DNA of 64,000 nt, from assembly GCF_947500985.1 (NCBI RefSeq), contig NZ_CANMTX010000002.1:310001-374000 (forward strand), given 5' to 3'. This stretch comes from an uncultured Maribacter sp. (GTDB lineage Bacteria; Bacteroidota; Bacteroidia; Flavobacteriales; Flavobacteriaceae). The notes below the pieces were generated by a model. It was not told the origin of the DNA, did not search any database, and saw only the letters and a program-made list of their open reading frames with translations. Positions within the stretch are counted from its first letter, which is position 1, and each line of letters opens with the position of its first letter. Both the position numbers and the translations under genes were made by a program. Shown here piece after piece: positions 11,801 to 33,109 of the stretch.

Positions 11801-11956
11801 AACGAACCGACCAACTGGTCTGTTTTTTATAATCAAAATGTCCGCAAAATTCTTGAGACAAAAGATAGCCTTCACTATTTTATCGATAAAATGCAAAAAG
11901 TAGGAAGTTAAATGAGTGTTTCAGGAGCCAAACAAACCAAGTGGTTTGTTTTTTGG
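11801..11956. repeat. Double-hairpin intergenic element, copy A
   Basis: Leftmost copy of the element bordering the island. First hairpin about 11805-11828 (aaccgaccaactggtctgtt), degenerate conserved middle with tatcgataaaatgcaaa (11880-11896), second hairpin 11930-11955 (aaacaaacca / tggtttgttt followed by T's). Both resemble Rho-independent terminators. The rest of the 11541-12178 gap has no supported gene. Confidence 0.75.
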
Positions 11957-12011
11957 TATTGAAAAGAGAGGTTAGAATGATCTATTTCTTACTATAAGTT
12001 ATGAATTTAAG

Positions 12012-12061
12012 AAGATTTGCGTTTTATGTTTCTGCTCGCAGACACGTAAAACGCAAATCTT
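12012..12061. terminator. Long hairpin downstream of the CPBP gene
   Basis: 18-nt arms, aagatttgcgttttatgt at 12012-12029 and its complement at 12044-12061 with one mismatch, around a 14-nt loop. It lies about 120 bp 3' of the CPBP protease gene (minus strand). No clear T-run on the minus strand, so it is either a weak terminator or a structured RNA. Confidence 0.5.
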
Positions 12062-12178
12062 TCATTATGAACCTATATCCGTTGTTGTTAGGGTTACTGT
12101 TTTATTTTTATGAAATAAGATGCACAGTGAATATCTAATCAAGGTAGGTGATGATGTAACTAGTGTTTCCAGTTATCA

Positions 12179-12841
12179 TTATGCCAATCCGTAGTAAATA
12201 CAAATCAACGATATGGTATCAAAAAAACCATGTACGGCAATTACAAACCATAAATCGTATTTGCGTAGGTAGAATATCAATGCTATGAGCCCTCCGACGG
12301 TACCTGCGACTATTTGTCCGGTAATTCCTTGGTAACTATGCATGAAGCCAAAAAAACAAGCCAACAAGACGATATTAAGAACAATACTGAATTTGCTTTC
12401 TCCAAAGAATTTTACAAACTGTCTCATGAAATAACCACGAAAAATAATTTCTTCTCCAAACCCAGCAGTAGCCCAAACTACTACTAAAGCAATTAAGCAA
12501 GCGGAAAGATTTCCTTCTAATTCTTTAAAACTAGAATAATCTATAGGAACTCCTGTGAGTTTTGTAATTCCAGGAACCAATAAAAAGACATAAAAAGTAA
12601 AGAGACCTAGTGCGACTAATGGCGCTTGTACGAAGATATTTTTGACTGTGAATTTTTCACGTTGAAAACCTAGCGCTGAAAATAGCTTTTTTTTGTATTC
12701 TATATAATTTGATAAGATGATTATTATAGAAACAACGATGTTTTCTATATAACTAAATTGTAGTGGTCCAAACCATATAAAGCAGATAACTGCAATGGTA
12801 ATTAATGGAATTACTATTTGGCGTAAGGTAACTTTGTTCAT
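12179..12841 (-). CDS. CPBP family intramembrane glutamic endopeptidase (CAAX/Abi type)
   Basis: 220-residue polytopic membrane protein with about six helices. Catalytic motifs of the CPBP/Abi family: EEIIFRGYF (Glu-Glu...Arg) near residue 130, and a His in FGFMHSYQG near residue 168, with a further His in VIAVHGFFDT. Bacterial members act in CAAX-like processing, bacteriocin immunity or signalling; the substrate here is unknown. First gene of the island after copy A. Confidence 0.88.
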   Translation of the reverse strand: MNKVTLRQIVIPLITIAVICFIWFGPLQFSYIENIVVSIIIILSNYIEYKKKLFSALGFQREKFTVKNIFVQAPLVALGLFTFYVFLLVPGITKLTGVPIDYSSFKELEGNLSACLIALVVVWATAGFGEEIIFRGYFMRQFVKFFGESKFSIVLNIVLLACFFGFMHSYQGITGQIVAGTVGGLIALIFYLRKYDLWFVIAVHGFFDTISLICIYYGLA

Positions 12842-12956
12842 TATTTTTGGTTTTTAAATTCTAAACGAATTAATGAACAAAAACGCTGAAACCCCTTTTA
12901 ATTATTGATGTTCTTACTGAGTGGTAGTAAATTAATTACTGAATAGTCGGTGTTTA

Positions 12957-13793
12957 TTATTGAAACCAATTCAAAAATTCTTTTCGCTTGTACCGACTGA
13001 TATTTATTTCTTTAATAGCATCATTTTCAATAGCTGCTTTTAATTGAATACGTAGTTTACCATTTTCAATTTTTTCTATTTCTTCTACAGCATCTTTGTG
13101 AACTATAATTTGCCGGTTGGCTCTATAAAACAATTGATTGTTTATTTTTTCTTCCAGCTCATTCAATATAAAATCGGTGCTTATTGTTGTGCCATCATTT
13201 TTAACAGCAAATACTATTTTATTTTCACTAAAAAAACATGCAATATTTTCATAAGCGAGTTTTGTGGTTTTTGCACCGCTTTCTATGGTTACAACAGCAT
13301 CTTTTATAGATGACTTATATAAATTGTAAATGTCTTGGGCATACGACAACCCTATAAGAATAAAACTCAATAGTAAGGTAATGAGTAAACCTATTAGTAA
13401 ATAATAGAACTCTATCTCTCCATCTACGACTAGACTAAAAATAAAATTTACAGGAATATACATGAGTGTAATATATCCTAAGGTTGAAGCCATAAACCAT
13501 ATAATAGCTGTGATTTCAACTTTTTTATAGAAATGCTTTTTCTTGTAATATTGAAAGTTAACCTCGGTTATGATGCCTATAAGAATACACAAAACAATAG
13601 ATGCCAAAAAACCTTCAATGGGGAATCTATAAGTATCACCATCAGGAAAACTTTCTGGTGTCGCTAAATGGTTTAGTACTAAAGAGAAAATAATCAATAC
13701 TACTACTTTCTTAAACCAACGCCCTGCAGAACCATTCATAAAAGTGTGCCAGTCGGTTTTTAGGGTGTTTTTGGTTGTTGGTACGGTGCTCAT
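12957..13793 (-). CDS. LytTR DNA-binding regulator with membrane N-terminus
   Basis: 278 residues: four predicted transmembrane helices (about 28-46, 63-82, 93-112, 124-150) followed by a cytoplasmic LytTR domain (about 178-278), with ENIACFFSENKIVFAV and FYRANRQIIVHKDAVEEIE typical of that fold. No response-regulator receiver domain, so it is probably a one-component membrane-tethered regulator. The adjacent CPBP protease (115 bp downstream) is a plausible partner or target. A perfect inverted repeat lies just upstream. Confidence 0.88.
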   Translation of the reverse strand: MSTVPTTKNTLKTDWHTFMNGSAGRWFKKVVVLIIFSLVLNHLATPESFPDGDTYRFPIEGFLASIVLCILIGIITEVNFQYYKKKHFYKKVEITAIIWFMASTLGYITLMYIPVNFIFSLVVDGEIEFYYLLIGLLITLLLSFILIGLSYAQDIYNLYKSSIKDAVVTIESGAKTTKLAYENIACFFSENKIVFAVKNDGTTISTDFILNELEEKINNQLFYRANRQIIVHKDAVEEIEKIENGKLRIQLKAAIENDAIKEINISRYKRKEFLNWFQ

Positions 13794-13807
13794 TAATTAG
13801 AAGCTCT
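13787..13807. repeat. 21-bp direct repeat, copy 1
   Basis: A 21-bp stretch beginning tgctcattaattagaag covers the start codon and leader of the LytTR gene. The identical 21 bp recur at 16664-16684, where no LytTR gene remains; weaker similarity extends on both sides. Confidence 0.8.
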
Positions 13808-13824
13808 ATTTTTTGGCAGTTAAC

Positions 13825-13854
13825 CTATTTTTATACCGTGTAGTATAAAAATAG
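13825..13854. promoter_or_regulatory. Perfect 12-bp inverted repeat between GNAT and LytTR genes
   Basis: CTATTTTTATAC at 13825-13836, 6-nt loop, exact complement at 13843-13854. It sits 32 bp before the LytTR start and 53 bp past the GNAT stop (both minus strand). Either an operator for the regulator or an A/T-rich terminator of the GNAT gene. Confidence 0.55.
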
Positions 13855-13906
13855 TAGTAGATTAATATGCGCTAACTTTTCAGTTAAACACAGGCTTTTA
13901 TAATAC

Positions 13907-14359
13907 TTACTTTATTCCATTATATACATTCGGGTTATGTTTCTCCATATAAAATTCAGGATGAGGTATTTCCGTAAACCCAAACTTTTTATAAAGCCAT
14001 TCAGCTGTATCAGTTAATAAAATCCAGCGTCTTAATCCTTGAAGATTGGGGTGTTCCATTATTTCGTTGATCAGCCATTTACTTAATCCCTTTCCTCTAT
14101 GTTCTTTTAGAATATAAACATCTCCTAAATATGCAATAGTTGAATAGTCAGAAATTATTATAGCAAAGCCAATTTGTTGGTCTTTGTAATAAAGACCAAA
14201 ATTTAAAGAATTTTCAATAGATGTTTTTAAAGTATTGAGTGGAATTCCGTTAGCCCAATCAGTTTGGTTTGCAAGAAATTTGTGAATGCTCGAGATATGT
14301 AATTTATTCCTGTCAGTTGAAATGGTGTACTCATTTCTATGTGTCTCTCTAATTTCCAA
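13907..14359 (-). CDS. GNAT family N-acetyltransferase
   Basis: 150 residues. GNAT acetyl-CoA loop LKEHRGKGLSKWLINEIM (R-x-x-G-x-G variant, about 82-99) preceded by strand AYLGDVYIL, and the family-typical C-terminal WLYKKFGFTE. Small-molecule or protein acetyltransferase; substrate unknown. Stand-alone cargo gene, with an attC-like spacer 34 bp upstream of its start. Confidence 0.87.
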   Translation of the reverse strand: MEIRETHRNEYTISTDRNKLHISSIHKFLANQTDWANGIPLNTLKTSIENSLNFGLYYKDQQIGFAIIISDYSTIAYLGDVYILKEHRGKGLSKWLINEIMEHPNLQGLRRWILLTDTAEWLYKKFGFTEIPHPEFYMEKHNPNVYNGIK

Positions 14360-14392
14360 TTCAGTTTTCTTAATTAATACCTCCTTCTACAC

Positions 14393-14520
14393 ACGAAGCT
14401 AAAGCTTTTTGTTTTAATTTTTTTCTAACGCGAAAATGTCAAAGGTTTAGAGACATATTAAATATATACAGACCTTTGGTTTTGCCCTAAAGTTTGTTTT
14501 ATGTTTAGGTATTGTTATAG
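14393..14520 (-). repeat. attC-like imperfect palindromic spacer, J1
   Basis: Spacer between GNAT and the DUF4259 gene. It shares with J2-J4 and J7 the block atatacagacctttggtttt, then an aaag...atgtttagg segment, and ends attgttatagcc at the 3' edge of the next minus-strand gene. One of a family of spacers placed 3' of single genes in the island. Confidence 0.6.
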
Positions 14521-15391
14521 CCAGTTCTTTATCCATGGCTTTTTAGTCCATTTGCTCAAACTGACACTTGTTTTAACTTTTCCATTTATTTTTTTTTTGT
14601 CCGCAACCATTGAAAAAAGGACAGACCACGGATAAGTACTTGTTCCAATTTTTTCAGAGTTATATTCTTCGAAAATTTTCAATTGTCCAATAACCTCAAT
14701 TTCAGGATTATCTCTTTTGAACGATAAGGCTGAAAATCCGCCAATATGATGTCTGTCCACTAAATTTTCGTGTATTTGATTGTTTTGTACGCTGACTTCT
14801 TGCGAGCGAGTACTATAAACTCTGCCATTCTTAAAATCCTCTAATGTGGGTTTGGTCGCCTTGTCAATTGTCGTAATTGCAATTTCGTTTGCCCCGACTT
14901 CGGTCGATTTTTCATCTGTCAACACAAATGCTCCGCCATAATTTCCGTTGTTCATTTTGTACACTAAACAATCTCCTTTGTAAAAGATAGAATTGTAGAG
15001 TTTCTTCTTCAACCGTTTTTCGAGGTTTTACTTTTTCAGTTTTGATTTTTTCAAGAAACTTGGTTAATACTTGTTCTCTTTTTTTTATGTCCGATTGTGT
15101 GCTGTCTAGTTCTTGCCATATTTCAATGTCCATTCCAGAATTGACAATCTTTTCAACCTTGGAAAAAATTTCTTTGTCCAATTCCTTACACTCCCATTGT
15201 CCGTTGGCAATAGCGAACCAAAAATTTGATGAGTCTTCTCTTGTACTTATTGTTTCTTTATTATCAGCAATCAATTTTTTGGTAATTTCTGGTATAGAAA
15301 CTCCATCATTGTACAGGTCGATAAATTCTCTATAAATGTCCGAATAAGTATCATTAGAACTTATTCCTGTTCCCCAAGTTCCCATTTGCAA
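14515..15391 (-). pseudogene. DUF4259-Imm26 protein gene broken by a one-base frameshift
   Basis: Two overlapping frames form one gene. The first (start 15391) encodes a DUF4259-like N-terminal domain, MGTWGTGISSNDTYSDIY..., with FWFAIANGQWECK; it leaves the family reading after KPRKTV near 15010. The second frame continues KKKLYNSIFYKGDCLVYKM and NGNYGGAFVLT, an Imm26-like domain, to the stop at 14515. A single-base gain or loss in ggttgaagaagaaac (about 15000-15012) explains both. The intact protein would have about 292 residues. Imm26 domains are known from polymorphic-toxin immunity, but no toxin is adjacent. A sequencing error is not excluded. Confidence 0.75.
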
Positions 15392-15544
15392 TTTTTTTTA
15401 GAATTGGCAATATCGGTCTAGTGTATGATTTCGTTGCGAGTTTAAGCAAAAAGTTAGCAAATGAATTACAGATAGAAACACCTCGTGGTCTTTCGTAAGT
15501 AAGCCTTAATTAGCAATAAATTATTTAAACTATTGGCACCAGTT

Positions 15545-16387
15545 TTAATTACATAACTTTTCAAGTTTCTCAAAGTCTTCATCAGCTTCGAAATGCTTAT
15601 TCTTTTCAAGGTCTAACTTAAGTGCTTTCTTAAAATCTTTACAAGCATCTTTTTCTTCATCAAGTTCCAAATAAATACCAGCTCGATTGAAAAGTCCTAT
15701 ATCATAGCTTTTTTTCAACTTCAAAGCTAAATTGATTTTTGATAATGCTTCTTTTGGTTTCTCAATTTCTCTATAAAGACTTGCCCAATTGTTATAAAGA
15801 ATGTGAAGGTTTGGCTGGTTTGGAAATTCAGTCACTATCTTTTTATAATCCGCTAATGCTTCATTATACAATTCTAAATTAGTTTTTATATTTATCAGAT
15901 TCGCTAATGATTTGAAATCTTTTGGTGTTATTTCTAATTGTAATTCTAAATCTGTTTTGGCATTTTCATATTTCTCTAACCTTATATTTGCATAAGCTCT
16001 ATCAAAGTAAATATCAGAGAAAGAAGGTTTTTTTTCAATTACTTTTGAATAGTCAGATATAGCCATTTCAAACTTTCCATTATCCATATAGGTCTTAGCT
16101 CTCGAATAACGGACACTTAAATTATCAGGATTTAAATCTAATGATTTAGAATAATCAAGAATTGCGAGGTCATATTCTTTTCTCATACGATAAACATTTC
16201 CTCTGTTTGAATATGGTCCTGGGGAATCTGGATAAAGTTTTATTGCTTTTTCAAAAATTGAGAATGCGTTGTCTATTTTTCCTTTTTTCGCAAGTACAAT
16301 TCCTTTTGAGTTAAGTTCTTCCGCTGTTTGAGAAATTAGATTTTGAGTTGTAATCAATAGAATTGATATTACTAAAAATTTCTTCAT
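15545..16387 (-). CDS. Secreted/periplasmic TPR-repeat protein
   Basis: 280 residues: signal peptide (about 1-19, cut near QNLISQ), then about seven tandem tetratricopeptide repeats, for example AFSIFEKAIKLYPDSPGPYS and AILDYSKSLDLNPDNLSVRY. It ends in a Glu/Lys-rich helix. A protein-interaction scaffold of unknown partner. Stand-alone cargo gene; copy B of the double-hairpin element lies upstream of its start. Confidence 0.85.
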   Translation of the reverse strand: MKKFLVISILLITTQNLISQTAEELNSKGIVLAKKGKIDNAFSIFEKAIKLYPDSPGPYSNRGNVYRMRKEYDLAILDYSKSLDLNPDNLSVRYSRAKTYMDNGKFEMAISDYSKVIEKKPSFSDIYFDRAYANIRLEKYENAKTDLELQLEITPKDFKSLANLINIKTNLELYNEALADYKKIVTEFPNQPNLHILYNNWASLYREIEKPKEALSKINLALKLKKSYDIGLFNRAGIYLELDEEKDACKDFKKALKLDLEKNKHFEADEDFEKLEKLCN

Positions 16388-16484
16388 TCTGTTTTTTCTA
16401 ATTGGTCCTAACCTTCATATAAACTGACCACGGTACGTTTATTTCCTGTTTTGGTGGTTAAAGACTATTTAGCGAATATACTAT

Positions 16485-16700
16485 TTAAGAATAAACCTAC
16501 AATTTACATGTTTAATTCTATTTCGAAAATCTATAATTGCTATAAATTTTAAAAGATTAACTAGTCATTATTTGAACTCAAAAGAGAATTGCCTTAAAAA
16601 TAAAGAACCTACCAAGTAGTGTGTTTTCACTAGTAAAATGAGTGTTTTAGGTCGCTGTTTTGATGCTCATTAATTAGAAGCTCTTTTTTTGATAGCTGAA
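16485..16700. repeat. Double-hairpin intergenic element, degenerate copy B
   Basis: Matches the outer part of copies E and F (taagaataaacctacaattt at about 16488) and the first hairpin in decayed form (ctaccaagtagtgtg, about 16610). The second hairpin is lost. It runs into the 21-bp repeat shared with the LytTR leader (16664-16684). No gene is supported between 16388 and 16870. Confidence 0.6.
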
Positions 16701-16813
16701 GTATGTTTATAGTAGCTATTTTGCCTCAGTGTTTTGTTAGAACAGATGGTATGAAAGATTGTAAATCGTTATTTATAACATCATTAAGATGCAATAATGC
16801 TTTCTAATTATAA

Positions 16814-16853
16814 ATCTTCAAACCAACGGTAAAAACACCGTTGATTTGAAGAT
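16814..16853 (-). terminator. Hairpin terminator of the oleate hydratase gene
   Basis: 17-nt arms, atcttcaaaccaacggt at 16814-16830 and complement at 16837-16853 with one mismatch, around a 6-nt loop. It lies 18 bp past the oleate hydratase stop on the minus strand, followed there by an A/T-rich run. Placement fits a terminator. Confidence 0.65.
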
Positions 16854-16870
16854 AGAAAAAGTTTAAGTGG

Positions 16871-18481: not shown

Positions 18482-18945
18482 AATTTAAAATTTTGTTGAT
18501 TAAAGTGTTACTATGTTTAAGAGTAAGTGGTAGTTTAAATTTCGATTGTTTTGCAACTAATCTTGTATGAACAAACCCGACCTTAAAGAAATTTGTATGG
18601 TTTTCTGAAAAACACAGAATCAAACAATTAATTAGATCCCTAGTCGTATTACCGTACTTTATTTTATACAAAATTAGTTTTAGTTCAAAGGATAAAGAAT
18701 GACTTAAGTCAGTGTAGTGTAATAAGTATATGTATGTAGAAATTTGCCTGTTTGTTTTAGCAGAACACCAGCCCTATGTTTTTTACAGCTTAGTTTGATT
18801 TCTATTGAAATAGGTGATTTTAATTATTAATTAGAAAGAACAAAAGAGAGCATTTTTTGCTATTCGGTAAGTATATTTTGTTTGTAAAAGAGACGTGTAA
18901 ACGCTGTATTATAAGCCAATAATAGAATTCAGAACCTAATTACCT
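18482..18945. other. Intergenic region upstream of oleate hydratase
   Basis: No supported gene; the only minus-strand frame (18468-18671) overlaps the ohyA start and has no family-like content. At about 18753-18790 a fragment with gcagaacaccagccctatg and ttttttacag resembles the J7 spacer at about 29644-29672, so a decayed attC-like spacer may remain here. Confidence 0.4.
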
Positions 18946-19130
18946 TAAAAATAAAAAACCGACCAAGTAGTCGGTTTTTTACTTATAGAATGTGTTTATA
19001 ATTGTTGATTGTAACGACAGTAATCGCAATTGTATCGATTAAAGGCAAAGATTACGAAGGTAAATAGGCGTTTGGAGCACTAAACAAACCAAGTAGTTTG
19101 TTTTTTGGTTACACAAACGCGCTGTTTTAG
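18946..19130. repeat. Double-hairpin intergenic element, copy C
   Basis: First hairpin 18955-18980 (accgac, loop caagta, gtcggt, then six T). Conserved middle with taatcgcaattgtatcgat (19021-19039). Second hairpin 19083-19106 (aaacaaac, caagta, gtttgttt, T-run). After it only gctgttttag remains of the ogt-side flank, then similarity ends. Separates the oleate hydratase and 604-residue lipoprotein modules. Confidence 0.85.
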
Positions 19131-19287
19131 AGTTGTTATTGGTGTTTTTTATTAGAATTAGCTAAATAAAAAGTTTAATACTCCCATATAATAAATAAGG
19201 GTAAGTAAATATGGTTCGGTTATAATATACCTATACCCAAATAGGGTATAGGTGTGTCATTTTATTTGTTGTACAGCAAATTCTCAA

Positions 19288-21102: not shown

Positions 21103-21289
21103 GTATTAGCTTTTGATCGGGTTTTATTTGGTAGAACGTATTTATTATAGAATAGTTGTATCGTTTATTGGTTAACTTAATAAGTACTTTCCAAATTAAA
21201 GATTTGTGTTTTTTCTAAGATGTAGACGAGAATAATTAACTGCGTTGAACTATTGTAATTAGTAGTCTTATTCAATAGAAATGGTTAAA

Positions 21290-21525
21290 ACACAAACCGA
21301 CCAGTTAGTCTGTTTTTTACTGCTGAAATCTGTAGTAAATCATTGAAAATAGCGACAGCAATCGCAATTGTATCGACAAAAAGCAAAGTATATGAAGGTA
21401 AATAGGCGTTTGGAGCACTAAACAAACCAAGTAGTTTGTTTTTTGGTTGGATAAACGAGTTGTTTTAGAACAAACTTTGCTGTTTAAACGAACTCTTATG
21501 GTTCAACAACCACTGTTTTCAGTAG
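21290..21525. repeat. Double-hairpin intergenic element, copy D, with ogt 3' remnant
   Basis: First hairpin 21294-21318 (aaccgaccagttagtctgtt, imperfect), conserved gacagcaatcgcaattgtat (about 21353-21372), second hairpin 21420-21446 (aaacaaac, caagta, gtttgttt, T-run). It then continues into a copy of the ogt 3' end up to about 21520. It abuts the stop codon of the next lipoprotein gene at 21528. Confidence 0.88.
21465..21520 (-). pseudogene. Duplicated 3' end of ogt (remnant)
   Basis: Read on the minus strand this encodes KQWLLNHKSSFKQQSLF and a stop, against KQWLLNHESPFKQQSLF in the true ogt at 32633. By hand alignment about 50 of 55 nt are identical. No other part of ogt is present. Confidence 0.85.
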
Positions 21526-21527
21526 AT

Positions 21528-22148: not shown

Positions 22149-22285
22149 GGTTTTAAAAGGTAGTTAATTACTAGATATATCACAGAAAATATTGAGCGGT
22201 TGAGCTCGTATGTTTGGTTCTTAGTTTGAATGTACTATAATTATATAAACAAAGGAGAGACATATAGAGGTTGGGCTAGATACAA

Positions 22286-22410
22286 ACTTATTGTTTAGTT
22301 TTATTTTTTCTGGTCCAAAGCTAAATCCATAAGATTTAGCGACTTTATAAATATACATAGACCTTTCGTTTTTGCCCCAAAGTCCGCATTATGTTTAGGC
22401 ATTCTAAGTT
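22286..22410 (-). repeat. attC-like imperfect palindromic spacer, J2
   Basis: Contains a perfect small stem GCTAAATC / GATTTAGC around cataa (about 22320-22340), then aaatatacatagacctttcg, ccaaagtccgcattatg and a terminal gtttaggcattc. Same design as J3 and J4. Lies 3' of the EcsC gene on the minus strand. The remaining gap 22149-22476 has no gene; a caaaagaa triplication occurs near 22438-22461. Confidence 0.65.
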
Positions 22411-22476
22411 AGTAATCTGTTATCTTTTATAGTTTAACAAAAGAACAAAAGAACAAAAGAGCAGAGTAAGGTTATA

Positions 22477-23310: not shown

Positions 23311-23321
23311 ATTATTTATCG

Positions 23322-23501: not shown

Positions 23502-23519
23502 TCTTTATTTGCAGTTTGA

Positions 23520-23650
23520 TAACGCTTAAGCTAAAGCTTATTGTTTAGGTTTATTTTTTCTTGTCCAAAGCTAAATCCATAAGAATTAGCGGCATTATAA
23601 ATATACACAAGCCTTTTTGTTTCGCATTAAAGTCTCATTTCGTTTAGGTT
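23520..23650 (-). repeat. attC-like imperfect palindromic spacer, J3
   Basis: Outer arms ataacgcttaagctaaagc and a diverged complement ending cgtttagg; central stem gctaaatc / gaattagc; then the shared aaatatacacaagcc block. Fills the gap between the small lipoprotein start and the stop of the LamG gene. Confidence 0.68.
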
Positions 23651-23655
23651 TTTAG

Positions 23656-24399: not shown

Positions 24400-24414
24400 A
24401 ATTGGGTTTAATTA

Positions 24415-24552
24415 AGCAAAACGCTTCGGCTAAAGCTTTTGGTTTCGCTTCTTCTTTTTTTGTTTAAAGCTAAATCTATAAGATTTAGCGACCTCATAAA
24501 TATATACAGACCTTTCGGTTTTGCCTTAAAGTCGGACTTACGTTTGGGTTGT
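24415..24552 (-). repeat. attC-like imperfect palindromic spacer, J4
   Basis: aaacgcttcggctaaagctt on the left and cggacttacgtttgggttg on the right form a bulged dyad; central perfect stem gctaaatc / gatttagc with loop tataa (about 24469-24489); shared block aaatatatacagacctttcg. Right edge tgttgcca overlaps the 3' end of the next gene, and its complement ttggcaac recurs just upstream of that gene at 25117-25124. Confidence 0.7.
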
Positions 24553-25122
24553 GTTGCCAATTGTTATTTTTTTTAGTCCAGTCTGGGTAAGTATAAAATC
24601 TTCAAACCATTTTAAGTCATCCTGAACGTATTTTTCACTTTCATCATGAAAACGAAGGATATGGTGAAGACCATTATTATTATCTATAATGAACAAATTC
24701 CCTTCATACGTTTCGTTATCCAAAAGTTTATTGGTAACCCTTATTTCCATTATCGTACCCTCATCAAGTTTATAGTCCTCTAAAGGAGTTCTCACAATAA
24801 TTTTATTTTCTTTAAATATTTTAGGAAATGTATTGGCAAGTTTTTTTCTTTTATATTTCCGTAAATTAGAAACTCCAATTCCGATTAAAAAAAGAGCAGC
24901 CCCAGACATCTGAAAAATACCAATTCTGAGGTTTTTAATATTGATTATAAAGAAAATAATAATTCCAATCCCAATTAAAACCGGAACGACTCCAAGTCCA
25001 AAATAATCTACTATATCTCTTTTGGCCTTTCCAATAATTATTTCACCATTTTCTTTCGAAAAAGAGATTTTGTGTCGGTTAAGTTTTGATTCTAAGATTG
25101 AGAGATTCATAATTGTTGGCAA
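24538..25122 (-). CDS. Hypothetical membrane protein with two helices
   Basis: 194 residues: short cytoplasmic N-terminus, two adjacent transmembrane helices (about 38-60 and 67-88, VVPVLIGIGIIIFFIINI and MSGAALFLIGIGV), then a 100-residue soluble domain (NTFPKIFKENKIIVRTPLEDY..., DDLKWFEDFIL). Not assigned to a family. Stand-alone unit between spacers J4 and J5. The next possible start, MNLSILESK, lies 9 bases inside. Confidence 0.6.
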   Translation of the reverse strand: MPTIMNLSILESKLNRHKISFSKENGEIIIGKAKRDIVDYFGLGVVPVLIGIGIIIFFIINIKNLRIGIFQMSGAALFLIGIGVSNLRKYKRKKLANTFPKIFKENKIIVRTPLEDYKLDEGTIMEIRVTNKLLDNETYEGNLFIIDNNNGLHHILRFHDESEKYVQDDLKWFEDFILTQTGLKKITIGNTTQT

Positions 25123-25272
25123 CGGTATTGTATATGAATTGTAGCGTGCAAACTATCTTTTAATTATCGGTTGAGCACAAGCTAGATTTTTAAATTTAAC
25201 GAATTTCCAAATGTGCCTTAACTTCGTTTAAGCAACTCATTAGCTATGAGTTATATACGTTGTCGCTATTAG
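25112..25272 (-). repeat. attC-like imperfect palindromic spacer, J5
   Basis: Left arm ttggcaacggtattgtatat through gtagcg pairs imperfectly, with bulges, with the right arm tagctatgagttatatacg ending gttgtcgc. Between them lies A/T-rich sequence with gagcacaagctagat. The long arms, asymmetric bulges and GTTG-type ends resemble integron attC sites. It fills the gap between the two-helix protein and the DoxX gene. Confidence 0.65.
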
Positions 25273-25275
25273 TTT

Positions 25276-25851: not shown

Positions 25852-25865
25852 TTGGATGATGATTT

Positions 25866-25946
25866 TTTCTAATTAATGGCAATGTTCTGTGTATGGTGCG
25901 TATCCCGAAGGGTATGCATAATACACCTTGTTGTACTTAGTTTTTA
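25866..25946 (-). repeat. Compact hairpin spacer, J6
   Basis: 18-nt arm gtgtatggtgcgtatccc at 25889-25906 pairs with gggtatgcataatacac at 25910-25926 around a gaa loop. Outside it are ggcaatgttc on the left and cttgttgtac on the right, again weakly complementary. The same kind of spacer as J5 but shorter. Could also act as terminator for DoxX. Confidence 0.6.
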
Positions 25947-27191
25947 TTATTTACAGAATAGATTATAATATAAATGATGTATTTCAACGTATTTATAGTC
26001 ATCAATAGGTAAAGTATGTTTGGAAATAAAATGAGAATCGTTTATTTTTTTGAACCCTGATTGGTAACTGTGATGCGACTTGATAATCGATTCAGCATCT
26101 TCAATAACTTTAGTGAAATCTTTATTTTCCGAGAAAGTGATCATTATACCATAATTATGTCTCCATGATAAGTAACCCAATAATTGGTCAATTGTATCGT
26201 GATATAATTTTTCCCCTCCATAATATTTACACTCAGAAACGAGAATGTTTCCTTTATCAATATTTAAGTATATGTCCGATTTGCCTTTGTTATTAAAAGT
26301 TTCACCTGTCGCTTTTCATTCAAAAACTGAATTTAAATTCGCTAGGAGTAAATCCCTAAGGTTTTCTTCACCAAGTTTTTCATAAGTCTTTGGGGTTTTT
26401 TCGAATTGCAAACATTGATTGTTCATCAGTTGAATAATATCAACTACTTTTTCATGGTCAAGCTGATAGTCTTCTTCAGGAGTTTTAGGTTTAATTTTCT
26501 TTATAAATGGTTTTGTATTAACCTTGATCTTTTTAACAGTTTCAGAATCCTTTCGTGCAAGTGGAATTTGAGTTAATTTCATGATGTTTGATAATCTAGA
26601 CTTATCGCTATCCAATTTCTGTTTTCGTTGTTCAATAAACTGAGATAAATTTTGCTCCAGTTTTATATTTTCAGATTTTATTTCAGAATTCTTAGAACTT
26701 AAAATTCCTTGAATATCTCCTTTAATGCTCTTAATTTGTTGAGCGATTTGTTCATCACCAAGATTCTTACCATATCCTTTAATTTCAATATTAATTACCA
26801 CATATGAACCTTTAATATTTATGTCAGGTTTTGGAGACATTGATATTGAATTAGTCCTTAAACTTAATACTTGCTGTACATTACTATTTGGGACGATAGG
26901 TAATTTAACAATAATGTTTTCTGACTCTACTTTTAAATCTCCTTCTTGTTGATATCCAAACTCTCTTTCATGCGCATAAATTGTTTTTATCGATTTATCA
27001 TGACTCAATACCTCTTCCTTTGAATCATCAAATTCAATTGGTTGTAATGACTGACCCAAGTAATATTTTACTAAATCTTCAGTAGGATTAGCAATTATAT
27101 AATCATCCTGTTCCTGCGCAATTTTAATCTTGAGACTGTCAAACAGTTCAGAGTAATATTGTTGGTATGTTTTATCTCTTAATCTATTCAT
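25947..27191 (-). pseudogene. PD-(D/E)XK nuclease-like gene interrupted by an in-frame TGA
   Basis: One continuous frame of 415 codons broken by a single TGA at 26316-26318. The N-terminal 291 residues (start 27191) contain a beta-rich part and a charged helical segment. Immediately after the TGA the same frame continues KATGETFNNKGKSDIYLNID, then LVSECKYYGG and TIDQLLGYLSW to the stop at 25947, a PD-(D/E)XK core (Asp in KSDIY, Glu-x-Lys in SECKYY). Related proteins usually have a glycine-type residue at the interruption, so a GGA-to-TGA change is the simplest cause. Truncation removes the whole catalytic domain. An internal ATG (26180) cannot restore the Asp/Glu/Lys residues. Confidence 0.85.
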
Positions 27192-27206
27192 GGTTTAATT
27201 AAGTAC

Positions 27207-27626
27207 AAAAATTGTGTATGTGAATAAATTCACATTTTCCCCAATTTTAAGGAATATACATAATAGTTAATATTTCAGTATATTAAATATACCACTAAAG
27301 AATAAACCTACAATTAACATATTACATTCCATTACGGAAAACCATAATCACCATAAATTATTTAAGTCCGCTTAAGAAATGACTAAAAACAACGAACCGA
27401 CTAAGTAGTCGGTTTTTTACTTGTAGAATGCATTTATAAATGTTGATAGTAACGACAGCAATCGCAATTGTATCGATAAAATGCAAAGCTTATAAAGTTA
27501 AATAGATGTTTTAGGTACTAAACAAACCAAGTGGTTTGTTTTTTAGTTGGGTAAAGCAGCTGTTTTAGAACAAATTTGCTGTTTAAACGAACTCTTATGG
27601 TTCAATAACCACTGTTTGCTGTGCAG
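27207..27626. repeat. Double-hairpin intergenic element, full copy E, with ogt 3' remnant
   Basis: Longest internal copy, alignable with copy F over about 420 nt. Outer part with aagaataaacctacaattaa (about 27299), attccattacgg and accataatcacc; first hairpin 27395-27418 (accgac, taagta, gtcggt, T-run); conserved gacagcaatcgcaattgtat; second hairpin 27520-27545; then the ogt 3' remnant. No gene lies in 27192-27689. Confidence 0.9.
27565..27617 (-). pseudogene. Duplicated 3' end of ogt (remnant)
   Basis: Same segment as at 21465-21520. One base is deleted (caaatttg instead of caaactttg), which shifts the frame near the end. It shares the substitutions of the 21.5-kb remnant (tttaaacgaactcttatgg), so the two remnants are closer to each other than to ogt. 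Confidence 0.82.
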
Positions 27627-27689
27627 TTTTATAATCCTTAATACAAATTATTAGATGACTTCATAGTTTTAAAAAGGAACAAACATGTA

Positions 27690-28274
27690 CTAGTCTTCAG
27701 TGAGAGTTTTAAAACCTTCCATCACATAGATTAACTTACGTTTATCTTCGAATCCCGGATATTCTTCATCTGTGAACATTGATGGTAAAAAACTCTTATA
27801 TTCTGTGTAATTTTCGCCTTGGTATAAACCGAAAGTATAGGTTTGTCCACCACTTATGGCGTTTTTCCATGAGTTAGCTTTTTCTCCTAAGGTCGCTAAT
27901 TGACTTTGATCTATATTGAATTTTCCTTCGCTAACACAGAGATTCAAAAATGCCCAATACGCTGAATACTTTTTTTTCTTAACACGTATTCTCTTTATTT
28001 TGGTGGAAGCCATTGGTTGGGCGGACTCATTAATTCTATAGCGCCTTACCTTACCGTTTTTGAAGTAAACGATATAATTTGATTCTGGTTCTATATGTGG
28101 CAGTATAGAGTAGGCGAGGCGGACCACCAATGCTTCTGCATCTTTCAAGCCAAATAAATCAACATACCTGTTTACTTCTTCTGCATTCGTTTTAAAGTCG
28201 ATTTTTGGTATTTCAGGTGCTTGCGAAAAGGCTAGAATGGGTATAATGTTTAGTAGGAGTAGGAGGTTTTTCAT
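27690..28274 (-). CDS. Hypothetical secreted protein
   Basis: 194 residues with a signal peptide (about 1-17, ends AFSQ). Mature part: IDFKTNAEEVNRYVDLFGL, a strongly basic loop KIKRIRVKKKKYSAYW near 92-107 and an aromatic C-terminal half. Not recognised. It may form a unit with the LamG gene 155 bp upstream, but spacing does not prove it. Confidence 0.6.
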   Translation of the reverse strand: MKNLLLLLNIIPILAFSQAPEIPKIDFKTNAEEVNRYVDLFGLKDAEALVVRLAYSILPHIEPESNYIVYFKNGKVRRYRINESAQPMASTKIKRIRVKKKKYSAYWAFLNLCVSEGKFNIDQSQLATLGEKANSWKNAISGGQTYTFGLYQGENYTEYKSFLPSMFTDEEYPGFEDKRKLIYVMEGFKTLTED

Positions 28275-28429
28275 TTGGTTGGTATTCTATAATATTGAGC
28301 TAATTTTATTTGTTTTTCAGCTCAGTTCTTTGTTGTGCTTAGTGTTTTTAATCCAGTTCTAAACCCATAGAATGAGAGTAAAACAACTATATATAGTGAG
28401 AAAACAATTAATTGTTCTTATGTATAGCT

Positions 28430-29275
28430 TTACTCGAATAAAGATTTTATTCCATTTTTAAGCTTGTAAATAGATTTTACTTCATTAGCATCTAGAGTCT
28501 TATCAAAAGCGGTAAGCTCATCCATTAATCCAACATAACTTAAACCTAGCATGATTTTTGCGTTTTCCTCTTCCCATGTAAATGGATCGTTAACATCTTT
28601 TACAGCACCTTTGAGCTGACCATCTACATATAATTTGCATATAGATTTATTTGTGTTTACTTCGGAATAAGTAATGACAACATGTGTCCATTTTCCTGAC
28701 TTAAAAGGTGGGTTTATGACTCTAACGAGTCGTTTTTCTAACTCAGCATCATTAATTTTATTTTCCTTTTTTCGTATATCTAAATCTCCCAAAACACCTA
28801 ATCTAAATTGTCGTGGTTTATCATCTTTGGTGAAATCCACCCACAAAGCAGCGTCGTCGTATCTAACATCTGTAAGGTTTATTGGGTCGCAATAGCCTGG
28901 TTCTAGGTCCGTGTCAGGATCCAATTGCAGCCAAAACGAAAAGGAACCACTCCATGATTCAGAACTGTAACCCAAATTTTTATAACCGCTAAAATATATG
29001 GCAGTTGTGTTTTTCTTTTTAAAATGAAGAGCATCTCCCGTAAGGCCTTTGTTTTTGGCTAAAACAACATTAGGATTATGTAAGCCAGGTTTGGCATCAT
29101 TTGTTTTTTTATAGTTCTCAGCTGTGTAAATTAGTGAATCTCCGACAGATATATCTGCTGTTGTTTTTCCATTAAAAGAACTGTAAAAAAGGATATGATC
29201 TTTTAATTGCTTGTTTTGTGAAAAAGTAATACTTGTAATAAAAAAAAGAAGTAATGAGAATTTAGAAAAAAACAT
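28430..29275 (-). CDS. Secreted LamG-domain protein
   Basis: 281 residues. Signal peptide (about 1-19, cut near TFSQN), then one concanavalin-like LamG domain over most of the length: HILFYSSFNGKTTADIS, GSFSFWLQLDPDT, WTHVVITYSEVNTNKSICKL, YVDGQLKGAV, and GLMDELTAFDKTLDANEV at the end. No lipobox cysteine, so periplasmic or exported. Related in domain to 23656-24399 but not a close copy. Confidence 0.85.
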   Translation of the reverse strand: MFFSKFSLLLFFITSITFSQNKQLKDHILFYSSFNGKTTADISVGDSLIYTAENYKKTNDAKPGLHNPNVVLAKNKGLTGDALHFKKKNTTAIYFSGYKNLGYSSESWSGSFSFWLQLDPDTDLEPGYCDPINLTDVRYDDAALWVDFTKDDKPRQFRLGVLGDLDIRKKENKINDAELEKRLVRVINPPFKSGKWTHVVITYSEVNTNKSICKLYVDGQLKGAVKDVNDPFTWEEENAKIMLGLSYVGLMDELTAFDKTLDANEVKSIYKLKNGIKSLFE

Positions 29276-29589
29276 ATTTTTTGATTTTAATTATTATAAG
29301 TCTTTAATTAAAGATATCCTTACGGGTTATATAATAAAAAGGCTGGTCTTTGATTTAGTATTGTTGTCGTTTTTTGTTTTAATTATTTTAAATTTAATTG
29401 GTTTACTAATACCTCATCATTTATATATTTATATTCAATACTTATTGTTTTAGTTAATACATATTTCAGGACGGGTTAGCATTAAGCACAACGTTTAGTA
29501 TAAGAAACGTAGGGCAGTTAATAAGCACTTTCGTTTCAGTTAATTACTTAGCTAAATATAAATATTTTGCTTTTATCTTTTCTATTATA

Positions 29590-29690
29590 AACGCCAAATT
29601 TTATTTTTAGCGGACTTAGTTAATATTCACAGACCTTTCGGTTTAGCACAAGCGCCCTATGTTTTTTATACATTGTTATGCCCTGGCTTT
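29590..29690 (-). repeat. attC-like spacer, J7, at the 3' side of the RloC-like gene
   Basis: Contains tttagcggacttagttaat, cacagacctttcggttt and agcgccctatg, and ends tatacattgttatgccc at 29667-29683. The exact complement of attgttatgccc lies at 32270-32281, just upstream of the ATPase gene, so that gene is enclosed by inverted ends. The rest of the 29276-29589 gap is A/T-rich with no supported gene. Confidence 0.68.
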
Positions 29691-29693
29691 TTT

Positions 29694-32246
29694 TTAGTTC
29701 ATAATGTTTTCAATAACAGAAACCATAGTTGTAAATTCTTCAAGTTCTATCGGGTTTTCATTATTCTCAGTTCCATTGTGCATTTCTCCTCCAGATGCTC
29801 TGCCGTGAATATTTTCGAGTTTGTCAATTGTTTCATTATCATTCTTTAGCTTTCTGAGTTCTGCCCAAGCTATTCGACTATTTTTATTACTATATTTTGT
29901 TGGTAGTTGATTATTAAATACGACTTCATCTATTACACATTCAACGGTTTTTCTTAATAAACTAGCTGTTTTCATTTCTTCTTCAAACGGAGAGTTTTGC
30001 AACAATCTTTTAATTTCCGATAAATGCTCTTTTGCCTTGTTAGATTTATAGTTTCTTAAAACCCCCTTTATATTTTGACCTTCACTATTGACTTGATATA
30101 CTCTTATATGTTTCCCTTTAGATTTATTACAGTCTGAATCTATAGTTTTACATATATGGTTTTCTTTTGAAGTTTCAAATGCATCAAGGAATAAGCGATT
30201 ATGATTAAATAAAATTACTTGATTTTCTAAATTCAATAATCTTTGAGCGAATTTTCCAGCTATTCTATGGTCAAGACTATTGACCGGGTCATCAAGTATT
30301 ATTGGGTTTTTACTTTTTTGAATTTTTGCTTCCGCAATAAATAATGCTAATACAACTGCCTTTTGTTCTCCCTCACTTAATATAGTTTTAATATCGTTAC
30401 TTTTCGAAAGCATTAATTTAGTACTTGAAGTTCCTTTACCGCCTTGAGCATTCTCTATTTTTACTTTTAAATTATTATAACCAAGAAAACTTAACTCTTC
30501 TTTAAAACTCTCTTTAAGAGTTTCTGTTAATAGTTGACTATGTGCTTGTTTGGATAGCTCTGTAATACTTCTAGTGTTAATTTTTGAGGCTTTTTTTCTT
30601 ATTTTATTTTCTAAAATATCGGCTTCAAACCATTTTTTAACGTTCTCTTTCTGTTTACTTATAGATTCGTTTTCTTGAAGTTTTTTTAATGAGGTTTCTA
30701 ATTTTTCAATCCTACTTACTTTTTTAGTGTTATCATCCGATAACGTATCAATTTCTTTTTTTATCGATACGGAAATAGAATTTAGTTTGCTAGTGATAAT
30801 TTCAATAGTAGGTAAGTCGTTTTCGGGTTTGAAATTTCCAATCTTAATTTGTTCGATTAATTTCTCTCTCTCTATAGTGAATTGAGTATTTGTCTTTATA
30901 ATTACACTGTAAAACGATTCATTATCTCCTTCAAGTTTGTTTTTTTCTAAAATATCTTGAATATTCTTTTTAATTATCAATGATGTAGAGAAAGCTTCAA
31001 TATTCTTTTTTAGTTGATTTATTGATTTTATAGAATTATTTAATTTTTGTTCAGATTCATCTTTTAAATAATTGCCATAAGCTCTAATTAATCCCGTTGC
31101 ATTATCGTCTCGTAAAGTTTGACGACAATAAATACATACTTTATCACTATCTTCTACTTTTGATGTATATTTTTCGCCAGATTTAATAAATTCTTTCCAT
31201 TCAGAATTATCACTATTTGGGATTGTCGATAAAATTTCAAATTGTTTTTTAGCTAATTCGTTAGCTTCCTTGTGTTTTGTTATTGATTCTAATTCAATTT
31301 TAATATTACCACGAAATTCAGATAATTTTTTGTGAGTATTTTCTATATATGTTTTAATGCTCTCAATATCTGATTTATCACTCTGTTTAAGTTTGATTTT
31401 ATCTTGAATATTTATTTGTTTTAAATCTTCAATTTCTTTTTTCACTTTGATTAGATTATCAGTACTTTCTGCTGTAAAATCAAATAAATTTTCAATCTGT
31501 GTTTTTATTGAATCAGAAATTTGATTATTTTCAAATGAAGTCTTTATTTCATTTTGAAAATATTTCAGCTCTAGTGTTGGTTTTTCTAATCTTTTCTTGT
31601 TAGCATTATCATTCAGTTGTCTTTTAAATTTATCAATTAAAACTACCAAGCTTGAAAAGAGATTTAACCCTAATGGTTGTATTAAAGTGCTGTCAGCTTT
31701 TCGAGTTTCTAATAAACCGTTGAGATATGAAGAGTCAAAAACTTTACATTTGTTTAAGATGTCAAGTGAGCGAGTATTTCCATTCCAGTTTATTGTTTGA
31801 ATTGATTTGTTCTTTTCTTTAAAAGAGATATTTACATCAATTGTTATTGGGTTGTCTAAATATATGTTAGAAGAAACTTTCTTCTTTTGATTTCCACCTA
31901 CAATTTCATTCAAAACCTTAAAGTAACTACTTTTTCCTGCTCCATTTAATCCATACAGTATAGTAACATCATTGTGGAACTTAATAGTTTGAGATTGCTT
32001 TAAAGCATTTACACCTTCATTATGTTCTAATGATATTATGCGAACTTCCTCACTAGAATTATTATCATTGATATTAGGCTCATTAATGGTTAAAGTTGAG
32101 CCATTTGTTAAATTACAATATACTTCTTGTTTTTTATCATCAGAAATATTCCCATTAGATTCAATGACTTCATAAATTAAGAACTTTAACCAATCAGGTT
32201 GTGATTCAGCAAATTCCTTTAAATATTCTTTCGCATTAATTTTCAT
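29694..32246 (-). CDS. RloC-like AAA/SMC-type ATPase with zinc hook (AAA_13), probable RNase
   Basis: 850 residues. ABC-type ATPase split by a long coiled coil: Walker A GLNGAGKSS (99-107), zinc hook Cys371-x-x-Cys374 (CIYC) between coiled coils, ABC signature LSEGEQKA (623-630), Walker B with PIILDDPVNSLDH (648-660) and the NH switch at 681-682. The C-terminal 120 residues hold Arg816-x6-His823 (RASGGEMH), which fits the R-x4-6-H motif of HEPN ribonucleases. The layout matches RloC, an anticodon nuclease that responds to DNA damage or phage. No restriction-modification genes are adjacent, as is common for RloC. Function inferred, not proven. Confidence 0.82.
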   Translation of the reverse strand: MKINAKEYLKEFAESQPDWLKFLIYEVIESNGNISDDKKQEVYCNLTNGSTLTINEPNINDNNSSEEVRIISLEHNEGVNALKQSQTIKFHNDVTILYGLNGAGKSSYFKVLNEIVGGNQKKKVSSNIYLDNPITIDVNISFKEKNKSIQTINWNGNTRSLDILNKCKVFDSSYLNGLLETRKADSTLIQPLGLNLFSSLVVLIDKFKRQLNDNANKKRLEKPTLELKYFQNEIKTSFENNQISDSIKTQIENLFDFTAESTDNLIKVKKEIEDLKQINIQDKIKLKQSDKSDIESIKTYIENTHKKLSEFRGNIKIELESITKHKEANELAKKQFEILSTIPNSDNSEWKEFIKSGEKYTSKVEDSDKVCIYCRQTLRDDNATGLIRAYGNYLKDESEQKLNNSIKSINQLKKNIEAFSTSLIIKKNIQDILEKNKLEGDNESFYSVIIKTNTQFTIEREKLIEQIKIGNFKPENDLPTIEIITSKLNSISVSIKKEIDTLSDDNTKKVSRIEKLETSLKKLQENESISKQKENVKKWFEADILENKIRKKASKINTRSITELSKQAHSQLLTETLKESFKEELSFLGYNNLKVKIENAQGGKGTSSTKLMLSKSNDIKTILSEGEQKAVVLALFIAEAKIQKSKNPIILDDPVNSLDHRIAGKFAQRLLNLENQVILFNHNRLFLDAFETSKENHICKTIDSDCNKSKGKHIRVYQVNSEGQNIKGVLRNYKSNKAKEHLSEIKRLLQNSPFEEEMKTASLLRKTVECVIDEVVFNNQLPTKYSNKNSRIAWAELRKLKNDNETIDKLENIHGRASGGEMHNGTENNENPIELEEFTTMVSVIENIMN

Positions 32247-32462
32247 AAATATGTTCTAGGTTTTTGCTTGGGCATAACAATTGTATATGTGTACAATTGC
32301 ACATATTCTCCAATATAGAGGAATATATGTAATTGTTAATTTATCAGTATACTAATATACTACTAAAGAATAAACCTACAATTATCATCTTATATTCCAT
32401 TACGGGAAACCATAATCACCATTAATTATTTAAGTCTGCTTAAGAAATGACTAAAAACAACG

Positions 32463-32488
32463 AACCGACCAAGTAGTCGGTTTTTTAC
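32463..32488. terminator. Terminator hairpin 1 of copy F
   Basis: aaccgac, loop caagta, gtcggtt followed by T's. Works best on the plus strand by its T-run, but A's on the other side allow minus-strand use as well. Confidence 0.8.
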
Positions 32489-32588
32489 TTATAGCATGTG
32501 TTTATAATTGTTGATAGCAACGACAGCAATCGCAATTGTATCGATAAAATGCAAAGATTACGAAGGTAAAATGATGTTTTAAGCATAG

Positions 32589-32612
32589 AACAAACCAAGT
32601 AGTTTGTTTTTT
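32589..32612. terminator. Terminator hairpin 2 of copy F (ogt terminator)
   Basis: aacaaac, loop caagta, gtttgtt then T's. Lies 21 bp past the ogt stop codon. It shares the core accaagtagt with hairpin 1, suggesting that one arose from the other. Confidence 0.8.
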
Positions 32613-32632
32613 GGTGAAATAAGTGAGCTGTT

Positions 32633-33109
32633 TTAGAACAAACTTTGCTGCTTAAAGGGACTCTCATGGTTCAATAACCACTGTTTTCTATGCAATCCGC
32701 CAGCGTAACCGGTAAGTGAACCATCGGTACCAATAACTCTATGGCAAGGCACTACGATCCATAACGGATTTCGGGCATTTGCGGAGGCGGCAGCTCTGGT
32801 GGCATTGGGGTCTCCTAATAATTTTGCTAGCTCTAAATAAGACTTCGATTTTCCGTAAGGTATGTTCTGCAACTCTACCCAAACCTTCTTTTGAAACTCG
32901 GTTCCTTCAGGATTTAGTTTTAGATCAAACTGGGTTCTTGCCCCTTCAAAATATTCGTTCAGTTGATAAACGGCATCTTCTAAAGATTCAGGGATTACAT
33001 CGGTAAGTGGCTCATCAGAATTTAAAACGGTAACAGCCGAGAGTCCGTCAGCATCGCCAATAATTTTGGCAACGCCTAGGGGTGTATGTATGTAAGCAAC
33101 ATCGGACAT
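32633..33109 (-). CDS. ogt: Methylated-DNA-[protein]-cysteine S-methyltransferase
   Basis: 158 residues; repairs O6-alkylguanine by transferring the alkyl group to its own cysteine. N-terminal small domain, then the HTH/active-site domain with KVWVELQNIPYGKSKSY, the acceptor Cys in IVVPCHRVIG, and GYAGGLHRKQWLLNHE at the end. Normal length. Its last 55 nt and downstream sequence are repeated at 21.5 and 27.6 kb, so this gene marks the right edge of the island. A CBS-domain gene lies 15 bp upstream. Confidence 0.95.
   Translation of the reverse strand: MSDVAYIHTPLGVAKIIGDADGLSAVTVLNSDEPLTDVIPESLEDAVYQLNEYFEGARTQFDLKLNPEGTEFQKKVWVELQNIPYGKSKSYLELAKLLGDPNATRAAASANARNPLWIVVPCHRVIGTDGSLTGYAGGLHRKQWLLNHESPFKQQSLF

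Follow-up and report, generated by a model that had tools for sequence, protein, structure and literature searches.

The window analysed here is a stretch of 64,000 nucleotides (nt) from an uncultured Maribacter (Flavobacteriaceae; contig NZ_CANMTX010000002.1, positions 310,001 to 374,000), in which ogt, the gene for a methylated-DNA--cysteine methyltransferase, anchors an island of gene modules interspersed with copies of a repeat, element A. As the sequence-only reading of this DNA had described, the repeat is the sequence downstream of ogt: searches place the ogt-adjacent copy at window 32355-32694 and find five further copies on the same strand. The ogt-side element, or leader, extends about 190 nt beyond its second palindrome into an integron-type attachment site (attI-like site) that ends at window 32276. 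The features concerned are listed below.

32633..33109, minus strand: ogt, 158 amino acids (aa), anchor gene (PF01035/PF02870)
32276..32632, minus strand: ogt leader, element A copy 1, with two palindromes, conserved middle, putative cassette promoter and attI
32589..32608, minus strand: leader palindrome 1
32463..32482, minus strand: leader palindrome 2, terminator-like
32352..32381, minus strand: putative cassette promoter TTG-N19-TATATTAG, conserved in element A copies
32276..32306, minus strand: attI-like site, 31 bp, 29 of 31 positions identical to the site behind a 375-aa recombinase gene
27287..27626, minus strand: element A copy 2, with a 62-nt ogt fragment; attI decayed, G^TT lost
21272..21523, minus strand: element A copy 3, with a 56-nt ogt fragment
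18930..19148, minus strand: element A copy 4, without ogt fragment
16476..16645, minus strand: element A copy 5, reduced to its 3' part; behind it lies a decayed attI with a different type of palindrome
11788..11982, minus strand: last element A copy, adjoining the flank, without ogt fragment, promoter or attI

The two leader palindromes (32463-32482 and 32589-32608) have the common centre ACTACTTGGT and could serve as operators besides terminators. When the 4.25-Mb genome was searched with either the ogt-adjacent copy or the one at 11.7-12.1 kb, five copies were recovered, all inside the island (with the latter query also one local inverted match); both searches missed the partial 16.5-kb copy. 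The remnants of ogt noticed earlier are real, with 51 of 56 aligned nt identical at 21.5 kb (50 of 55 by hand in the earlier reading) and 55 of 61 at 27.6 kb. Comparison with ogt revealed no credible fragment in the copies at 19, 16.5 and 11.8 kb, and retention by only two of the five internal window copies does not support the proposal that a piece of ogt was duplicated at each insertion. Interleaved with element A and unrelated to it is a second repeat family, made up of attC-type sites that sit behind stop codons.

The ogt locus across the genus

Strong matches to ogt occur in 34 of 36 congeneric genomes, this one included (a 35th has only a weak paralogue match), and the stretch separating ogt from the following conserved gene was measured for the 17 genomes with both flanks in the DNA examined (genomes, contigs and loci carry G, C and L numbers). 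It is shortest in G016 (129 nt) and G019 (683 nt), reaches about 1.5 kb in G005 and G015, both of which have one open reading frame (ORF) on the opposite strand, and spans 6.9-32.2 kb in 13 genomes, again including this one. Content at this one place is therefore demonstrably variable between species, as had been predicted for relatives carrying different modules or a near-empty site, and modules common to several species are shuffled, the same gene having different neighbours; the view that modules were added repeatedly on the 3' side of ogt is likewise supported. In the window, each of the 19 ORFs of 100 aa or more in the interval from ogt to the conserved flank is on the ogt strand, as are 186 of 195 in the 13 large islands (greedy ORF calls; the 195 include two flank-adjoining genes in G000 and in G025). 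Counting partial ones, these islands hold 34 further element matches, distributed over 11 of the 13. Scattering of the element and its ogt fragment through the genome, which the earlier proposal had named as its own refutation, was not seen, the matches outside the locus (G014, G034) lacking the ogt part.

When 18 internal copies were compared with ogt, a fragment of its end 54-63 nt long, with a similar left edge, was retained in 10 and one of 85 nt in a single copy; in two the alignment covered just 21 nt, and in five it was not credible. About 90 nt of shared sequence precede the fragment in three unrelated-looking modules; this conserved right end ('RE') was considered as a phage-type att arm and rejected as not general, having been seen ahead of the ogt fragment in just three types of module. 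Part of the leader DNA is also present in relatives that have no array, up to profile position 254 in G019 and 232 in G001, G005 and G015, and beyond this shared ogt-downstream DNA the leader continues with a promoter-like stretch and then attI. In a tree of 54 copies, read from its topology without branch supports, internal copies of one module cluster across species (for example G004/G035 and G000/G027), one group holds seven of the ten last copies, and at least three internal copies cluster with the ogt copy of their own genome (G025_23991; G000_8375 and 16853), a pattern read as cassettes that would travel with their own leader copy, plus some within-genome exchange. Copies of this platform without ogt sequence (G014:C7, C10; G034:C2, C6, C18) come after IAYNLKKYLKF, which looks like a transposase C-terminal remnant; the platform may also move with an insertion sequence (IS).

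The joins between modules cluster about 360 nt downstream of ogt, where the attI-like site lies. Alignment of the G000 leader with other islands gave 14 ends, in 12 sequences, at the second T of a GTT triplet (window 32276) or at most 5 nt behind it, two of them (G010, G022) being contig ends and uninformative. A second cluster of 12 ends, in eight sequences, falls about 75 nt earlier, just before attI, at the end of the promoter-like block, and the DNA past it, as read in G004 and G025, contains an attI of another palindrome type. The ogt coding end, which the earlier proposal had taken for a target duplicated each time, does not coincide with these ends. Further shared stretches also stop at GTT, and it is because of these common ends that the repeats were read as attI and attC sites. 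Two shared array stretches that begin at GTT or about 10 nt behind it (G027/L131, 84.9% identity over 562 nt; G012/L131, 91.9% over 372 nt) look like true cassettes. Contigs G010:C34 and G022:C76 end exactly at the GTT of the ogt attI, and the L161 contig one base behind the GTT of a recombinase attI, possibly reflecting several different cassettes that follow in the sequenced culture.

Recombinase, attachment sites and cassette ends

The island had been described as free of integrases, and no recombinase was found among its 17 scanned ORFs of at least 120 aa. In the same genome, contig C9 encodes a 375-aa tyrosine recombinase at the head of a gene array; the genes run mostly in one direction, with repeats of about 200 nt between them, and the DNA just 3' of the recombinase stop codon matches the final part of the ogt leader at 29 of 31 nt. 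The helper dependence considered in the sequence-only reading gains support, the likely helper being this integron-type recombinase on another contig. The protein scores 225 bits against NF040815 (XerA / 'integron integrase'; cut-off 220) and resembles XerA most closely, carrying about 107 additional aa at its N-terminus; Pfam finds no domain within residues 1-107, and in a profile search no solved relative covers the N-terminal 105 residues (E<=1e-10; best stretches begin at residue 106 or later). Aligned with IntI4 (2a3v), it lacks about 43 residues at the IntI insertion (query 274-300 faces 174-243), and an IntI-type integrase with the family-specific insertion is accordingly the integron hallmark that is missing here. 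The catalytic residues, presumably Arg, Lys, His-x-x-Arg, His and Tyr as in the family, are invariant across 25 recombinase sequences; a single-sequence structure model was poor (mean predicted local distance difference test score 38.7) and was not used. The nearest named relative, at 75%, is from an uncultured Maribacter, and family names rest on such named relatives. At E<=1e-60 the recombinase is present in 27 of 36 genus genomes, with a near-full-length match of at least 55% identity in 21 only, and at E<=1e-80 in 35 of 199 genomes representing 34 of 198 sampled genera of the family.

Two other recombinases were rejected as helpers: that of the G025 island, which adjoins an IS91-type transposase, and a 275-aa protein of G001 as helper of all islands, its matches elsewhere being mostly the different 375-aa family. 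The latter, a tyrosine recombinase, lies directly behind ogt (L105; oriented locus 3497-4324) and is followed by genes with repeats of up to about 430 nt between them, the longest pairs 91-94% identical, making this a second recombinase-plus-array at ogt. Among the matches listed, PF00589 occurs at an ogt locus only in G025 and G001.

The G^TT cut at the ogt attI would fall between 32278 and 32277. A 31-bp pattern built from the ogt and recombinase sites, with two two-base (degenerate) positions and at most three mismatches, has three matches in the 4.25-Mb genome, against none in the control. They lie at ogt, at the recombinase and, with three mismatches, at a third locus behind a 254-aa gene, whose first cassette is complementary to its own end at 6/6 positions (see below). 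Matches occur in 21 of the 36 genus genomes (control, 0), and the pattern is nearly absent elsewhere in the family (4 of 199 genomes, two of them in this genus). Examination of 20 loci with 22 such sites (gene names read from translations, without family search) places attI-like sequences behind at least five genes other than ogt: the recombinase (G034, G008, G011, G010), an SDR gene (G027, G035, G031), an ABC-F gene (G027, G008, G014), a 246-254-aa gene (G000, G034, G016), a CBS/channel-like gene (G013, G009, G023), a transaldolase (G011) and an aldo/keto-reductase-like gene (G007). Three sites in G034 lie in ogt-type platform copies without ogt, and in front of one in G008 (L126) no gene ends on the strand of the site. 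A palindrome like ACGTATATTATGCGCATAATATGCGT precedes the SDR-locus attI (L122, L124, L125) and resembles one upstream of recombinase genes L106-L110, perhaps a shared operator.

Outside the genus, 20 recombinase loci of our choosing were searched automatically for a palindrome followed by G^TT: 15 have arms of at least 8 (found in 3.7% of shuffles) with G^TT 3-6 nt on, L142 yielded another inverted repeat, and L141, L144, L154 and L158 have shorter arms, an imperfect palindrome before GTT being visible by eye in these five too. Fourteen of the 20 loci contain attC-type matches, some short and one on the opposite strand. A separate check of 22 recombinase loci, chosen from 80 named ones, detected attI-like palindromes with G^TT (automatic) mainly in close relatives such as L163, L164 and L166, and attC matches in three. 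The attI palindrome is, on these comparisons, lineage-specific, its sequence differing between genera; an attI beside the integrase gene and occupied by cassettes, as in integrons, is found among the scored loci at L106 and L139.

The attC-type sites of the window island, five (four of them partial) plus one half site, and the cassettes they delimit are as follows.

29492..29683, minus strand: attC of cassette 1 (attC profile E 9.9e-34), a member of the covarying alignment
24429..24565, minus strand: attC (attC profile)
23527..23651, minus strand: attC, partial (attC profile)
22284..22403, minus strand: attC, partial, behind an EcsC-like gene (attC profile)
14382..14526, minus strand: attC, partial (attC profile)
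25112..25198: attC half site (attC profile)
29492..32277, minus strand: cassette 1, start TTATGCCC, gene 29694-32246, attC with R'' GGGCATAAC (start complementary to own attC)
28332..29491, minus strand: cassette 2, LamG-like gene 28430-29275, start GTTGTGCTTA, own R'' TAAGCACAAC
24429..25122, minus strand: cassette with gene 24538-25122 and attC 24429-24565 (complementarity 5/6, contiguous)

Profile matches number 145 (142 when a duplicated stretch is counted once) and come from 38 of 52 sequences; every one lies on the array strand as fixed from ogt, attI or the recombinase, and they fall in ogt islands, recombinase arrays and other attI loci. The fold was tested on 28 aligned sites that we chose from 81 full-length ones, a single site coming from the window. 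In this alignment 95.0% of cells are paired, against 76.3% after shuffling, both-side changes affect 16 of 23 pairs, and covariation reaches 0.450 against 0.112, none of 500 shuffles equalling any of the three; sliding the alignment leaves 32.6-43.9% paired. The outer stem in particular shows strong covariation around two A.C mismatches, one of them invariant (columns 27/188) and the other present in 27 of 28 sites (22/193). Like the attC sites of integrons, these sequences are folded imperfect inverted repeats with R'' and R' boxes, the covariation being demonstrated at the level of the alignment.

In classical integrons, a cassette begins with nucleotides that form the reverse complement of the R'' box in its own attC. 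With the positions taken from the profile, and hence independent of complementarity, 56 of 84 adjacent start/attC pairs have at least four contiguous complementary nt of six, against 4.0% of all other pairings, and mean complementarity is 4.85 against 2.06. The rule is obeyed by 19 of 24 cassettes that start at attI and 37 of 60 that start at attC, which establishes cassette-end complementarity for the set as a whole. All six scorable ogt-adjacent attIs (G000, G012, G025, G027, G034, G035) are followed by 6/6 complementary starts, as are two of five scorable attIs in internal or unplaced platform copies (G008 5649, G027 7699). Cassettes 1 and 2 of the window obey the rule, the start of cassette 2 being complementary to its own R'' at 10 of 10 positions even where the profile missed its attC. 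A blind scan of the island for complementary 10-mers is weak alone, because it returned 11 pairs against 5.4 in shuffles; both ends are intergenic in two of them, and only the cassette-2 pair starts at an attC end.

The gene of cassette 1, the first at the ogt attI, encodes an 850-aa candidate defence ATPase (29694-32246; PDC-S06, PADLOC 1074 bits). A further candidate defence gene, of PDC-S54 type, is split into two ORFs (25947..27191, minus strand), and the remaining cargo includes oleate hydratase-like, LytTR, CAAX protease-like, EcsC, GNAT, DoxX, TPR and LamG proteins. A search of the island with Rfam gave two sub-threshold chance matches, which were discarded.

Weighing the explanations

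Taken together, the ogt island is probably an array of cassettes belonging to an integron-like system whose attI sites would be dispersed and whose recombinase, encoded elsewhere, would be trans-acting. Most likely the ogt attI would be served in trans by the 375-aa recombinase, which has its own attI and array at another place; the enzyme would cut the site at G^TT and insert circular cassettes, each consisting of a gene and a folded attC. New cassettes would thereby enter beside ogt, downstream of a leader that has terminator-like palindromes and a putative promoter. In some cassettes, a copy of the ogt leader (the 3' end of ogt with palindromes, promoter and attI) would stand in for the attC, and such attI-type cassettes, with homologous exchange between leader copies, would give rise to the repeats with ogt remnants, the ogt coding end being a passenger and not the insertion point. 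The fuller description, a dispersed integron with an Xer-type recombinase lacking the IntI insertion, folded attC sites and several attI docking sites, the docking site itself being mobile because cassettes receive copies of it together with its promoter and part of the adjoining gene, is as a whole favoured on balance.

Several observations weigh against this interpretation. Only the ogt-adjacent attI is intact within the window, the internal ones having decayed. The recombinase reaches 209 bits, in two pieces, against the integron-integrase model TIGR02249 and misses its cut-off of 265, which is passed in none of the 36 genus genomes. Sixteen genomes have the element past the coding end of ogt, and five of them (G014, G027, G031, G032, G035) have no such recombinase at E<=1e-60, G027 being a one-contig genome; arrays therefore persist without the recombinase. 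Complementarity is missed by 28 of the 84 pairs, a shortfall likely due to missed sites and decay; at the ogt loci (G001 and an unplaced G014 contig included) only 21 of 38 pairs obey the rule, and three scorable internal or unplaced attIs fail it (G031 10617 and two in the unplaced G014 contig). The attC profile was seeded from seven repeats of the same loci, the count of further pair types is a weak measure (17 of 500 shuffles), and orthologous arrays and related species are non-independent samples. Moreover, the longest stretches shared between arrays are, judging from four proteins tested, IS110-family transposase or group II intron reverse-transcriptase units and not cassettes. Long matches initially considered as shared cassettes (for example 97.5% over 1334 nt) were rejected on this account, the L124 and L129 proteins being IS110-family transposases and those of the L123/G025 stretch reverse transcriptases. 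These stretches start or end inside attC sites; the units lie in or beside attC (L124 3134-4057, L129 7321-8328, L123 8680-9990, L074 19060-19779), and copies are common to ogt islands and other arrays. In classical integrons, IS110-type and group II intron elements are known to use attC sites.

It is unlikely, if conceivable, that the island is instead the fossil of a conventional integron, ogt having once had its own recombinase beside attI, since lost, and leaving a cluster of attC sites without integrase (CALIN) on which only homologous recombination now acts. The different recombinase and array directly behind ogt in G001, the five element-bearing genomes lacking the 375-aa protein and the decayed internal attIs of the window fit such a history, whereas the ogt attI is intact and nearly identical to that of the resident recombinase, several other attI-like sites lie directly behind unrelated genes, and each of the six scorable ogt-adjacent attIs holds a first cassette with full end complementarity.

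Islands may also accrete at a gene end, as modelled by the staphylococcal cassette chromosome (SCC) or cis-mobilizable elements (CIME). Here, tyrosine-integrase islands would insert by a crossover inside ogt, an element-borne ogt 3' end restoring the gene, which would explain the fragments of 54-63 nt with a similar left edge in 10 of 18 internal copies, the one of 85 nt and the shared 90 nt before the fragment in three unrelated-looking modules. Such accretion is very improbable: alignment ends between species cluster at or just before attI and not in ogt, many copies have no ogt sequence, and neither a crossover in the coding end nor an element-borne recombinase was found, the scanned window ORFs including no recombinase and that of the G025 island adjoining an IS91-type transposase. 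Equally improbable are plain homologous recombination and tandem duplication between leader copies, with no site-specific recombination today, which would suit the internal copies that cluster with the ogt-adjacent copy of their own genome (G025_23991; G000_8375 and 16853) but leave attC covariation, cassette-end complementarity and attI-like sites at unrelated loci unexplained.

Relation to known integrons

Integrons are described as one platform with its integrase. The proposed system shares with them a covarying, imperfect attC stem with near-invariant mismatched bases, a probable cut at G^TT, cassette starts complementary to their own R'', an attI beside the recombinase gene and one-directional cassettes. 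It differs in its recombinase, which is XerA-like, lacks the IntI insertion and has a long N-terminal extension, in an attI that is a lineage-specific palindrome behind the recombinase gene, and in the presence, in part of the genus, of several attI-like sites per genome, most of them without a recombinase.

Like a CALIN, an attC cluster without integrase (PMC9024848), the window island has at least two attC sites and no integrase nearby; unlike one, it also has an attI, outside the CALIN definition, which is its own, intact and occupied, and repeated leader copies. Integrase-less arrays have been proposed to be degraded integrons (PMC9024848). In attI-type or delta-attI cassettes of class 1 and 2 integrons, shown to excise and insert, attI-derived sequence likewise replaces attC (PMC12901181); the piece copied here is up to about 420 nt long, includes palindromes, a putative promoter and part of ogt, and recurs in arrays across the genus. 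Leader copies with attI lie behind genes inside islands, the next cassette being 6/6 complementary at G008 5649 and G027 7699 but not at G031 10617 or the two unplaced G014 sites. Insertions at attG sites, mentioned in PMC12901181, similarly bring cassettes to chromosomal places away from the integrase, whereas the sites here are long, conserved, attI-like and behind the same gene in several species. The IntI insertion has been called essential for integron function, though it is not fully conserved in that subgroup (PMC8138268). Bacteroidota are listed among the phyla with integrons (PMC8618304), and the only complete integron that IntegronFinder 2.0 reported for a species of the Bacteroidetes proper was in Salinibacter ruber (PMC9024848); among the papers listed in searches of one open-access library, titles and abstract openings describe neither a Flavobacteriaceae integron nor a single integrase with several attI sites.

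With a recombinase that lacks an insertion held essential in IntI, the recognition of folded attC becomes a testable question, and the intact, occupied attI without a recombinase at several gene ends implies that integrase-less arrays may be live satellites. If the proposed system is real, the arrays at ogt, the recombinase and other genes would share a single pool of cassettes, and each array would have an expression point of its own. Given the spread of the recombinase over 34 of 198 sampled genera, a gene-capture system carrying candidate defence genes may have been overlooked in this family, in which one bacterium seems to collect mobile genes, candidate anti-virus genes included, at several places at once.

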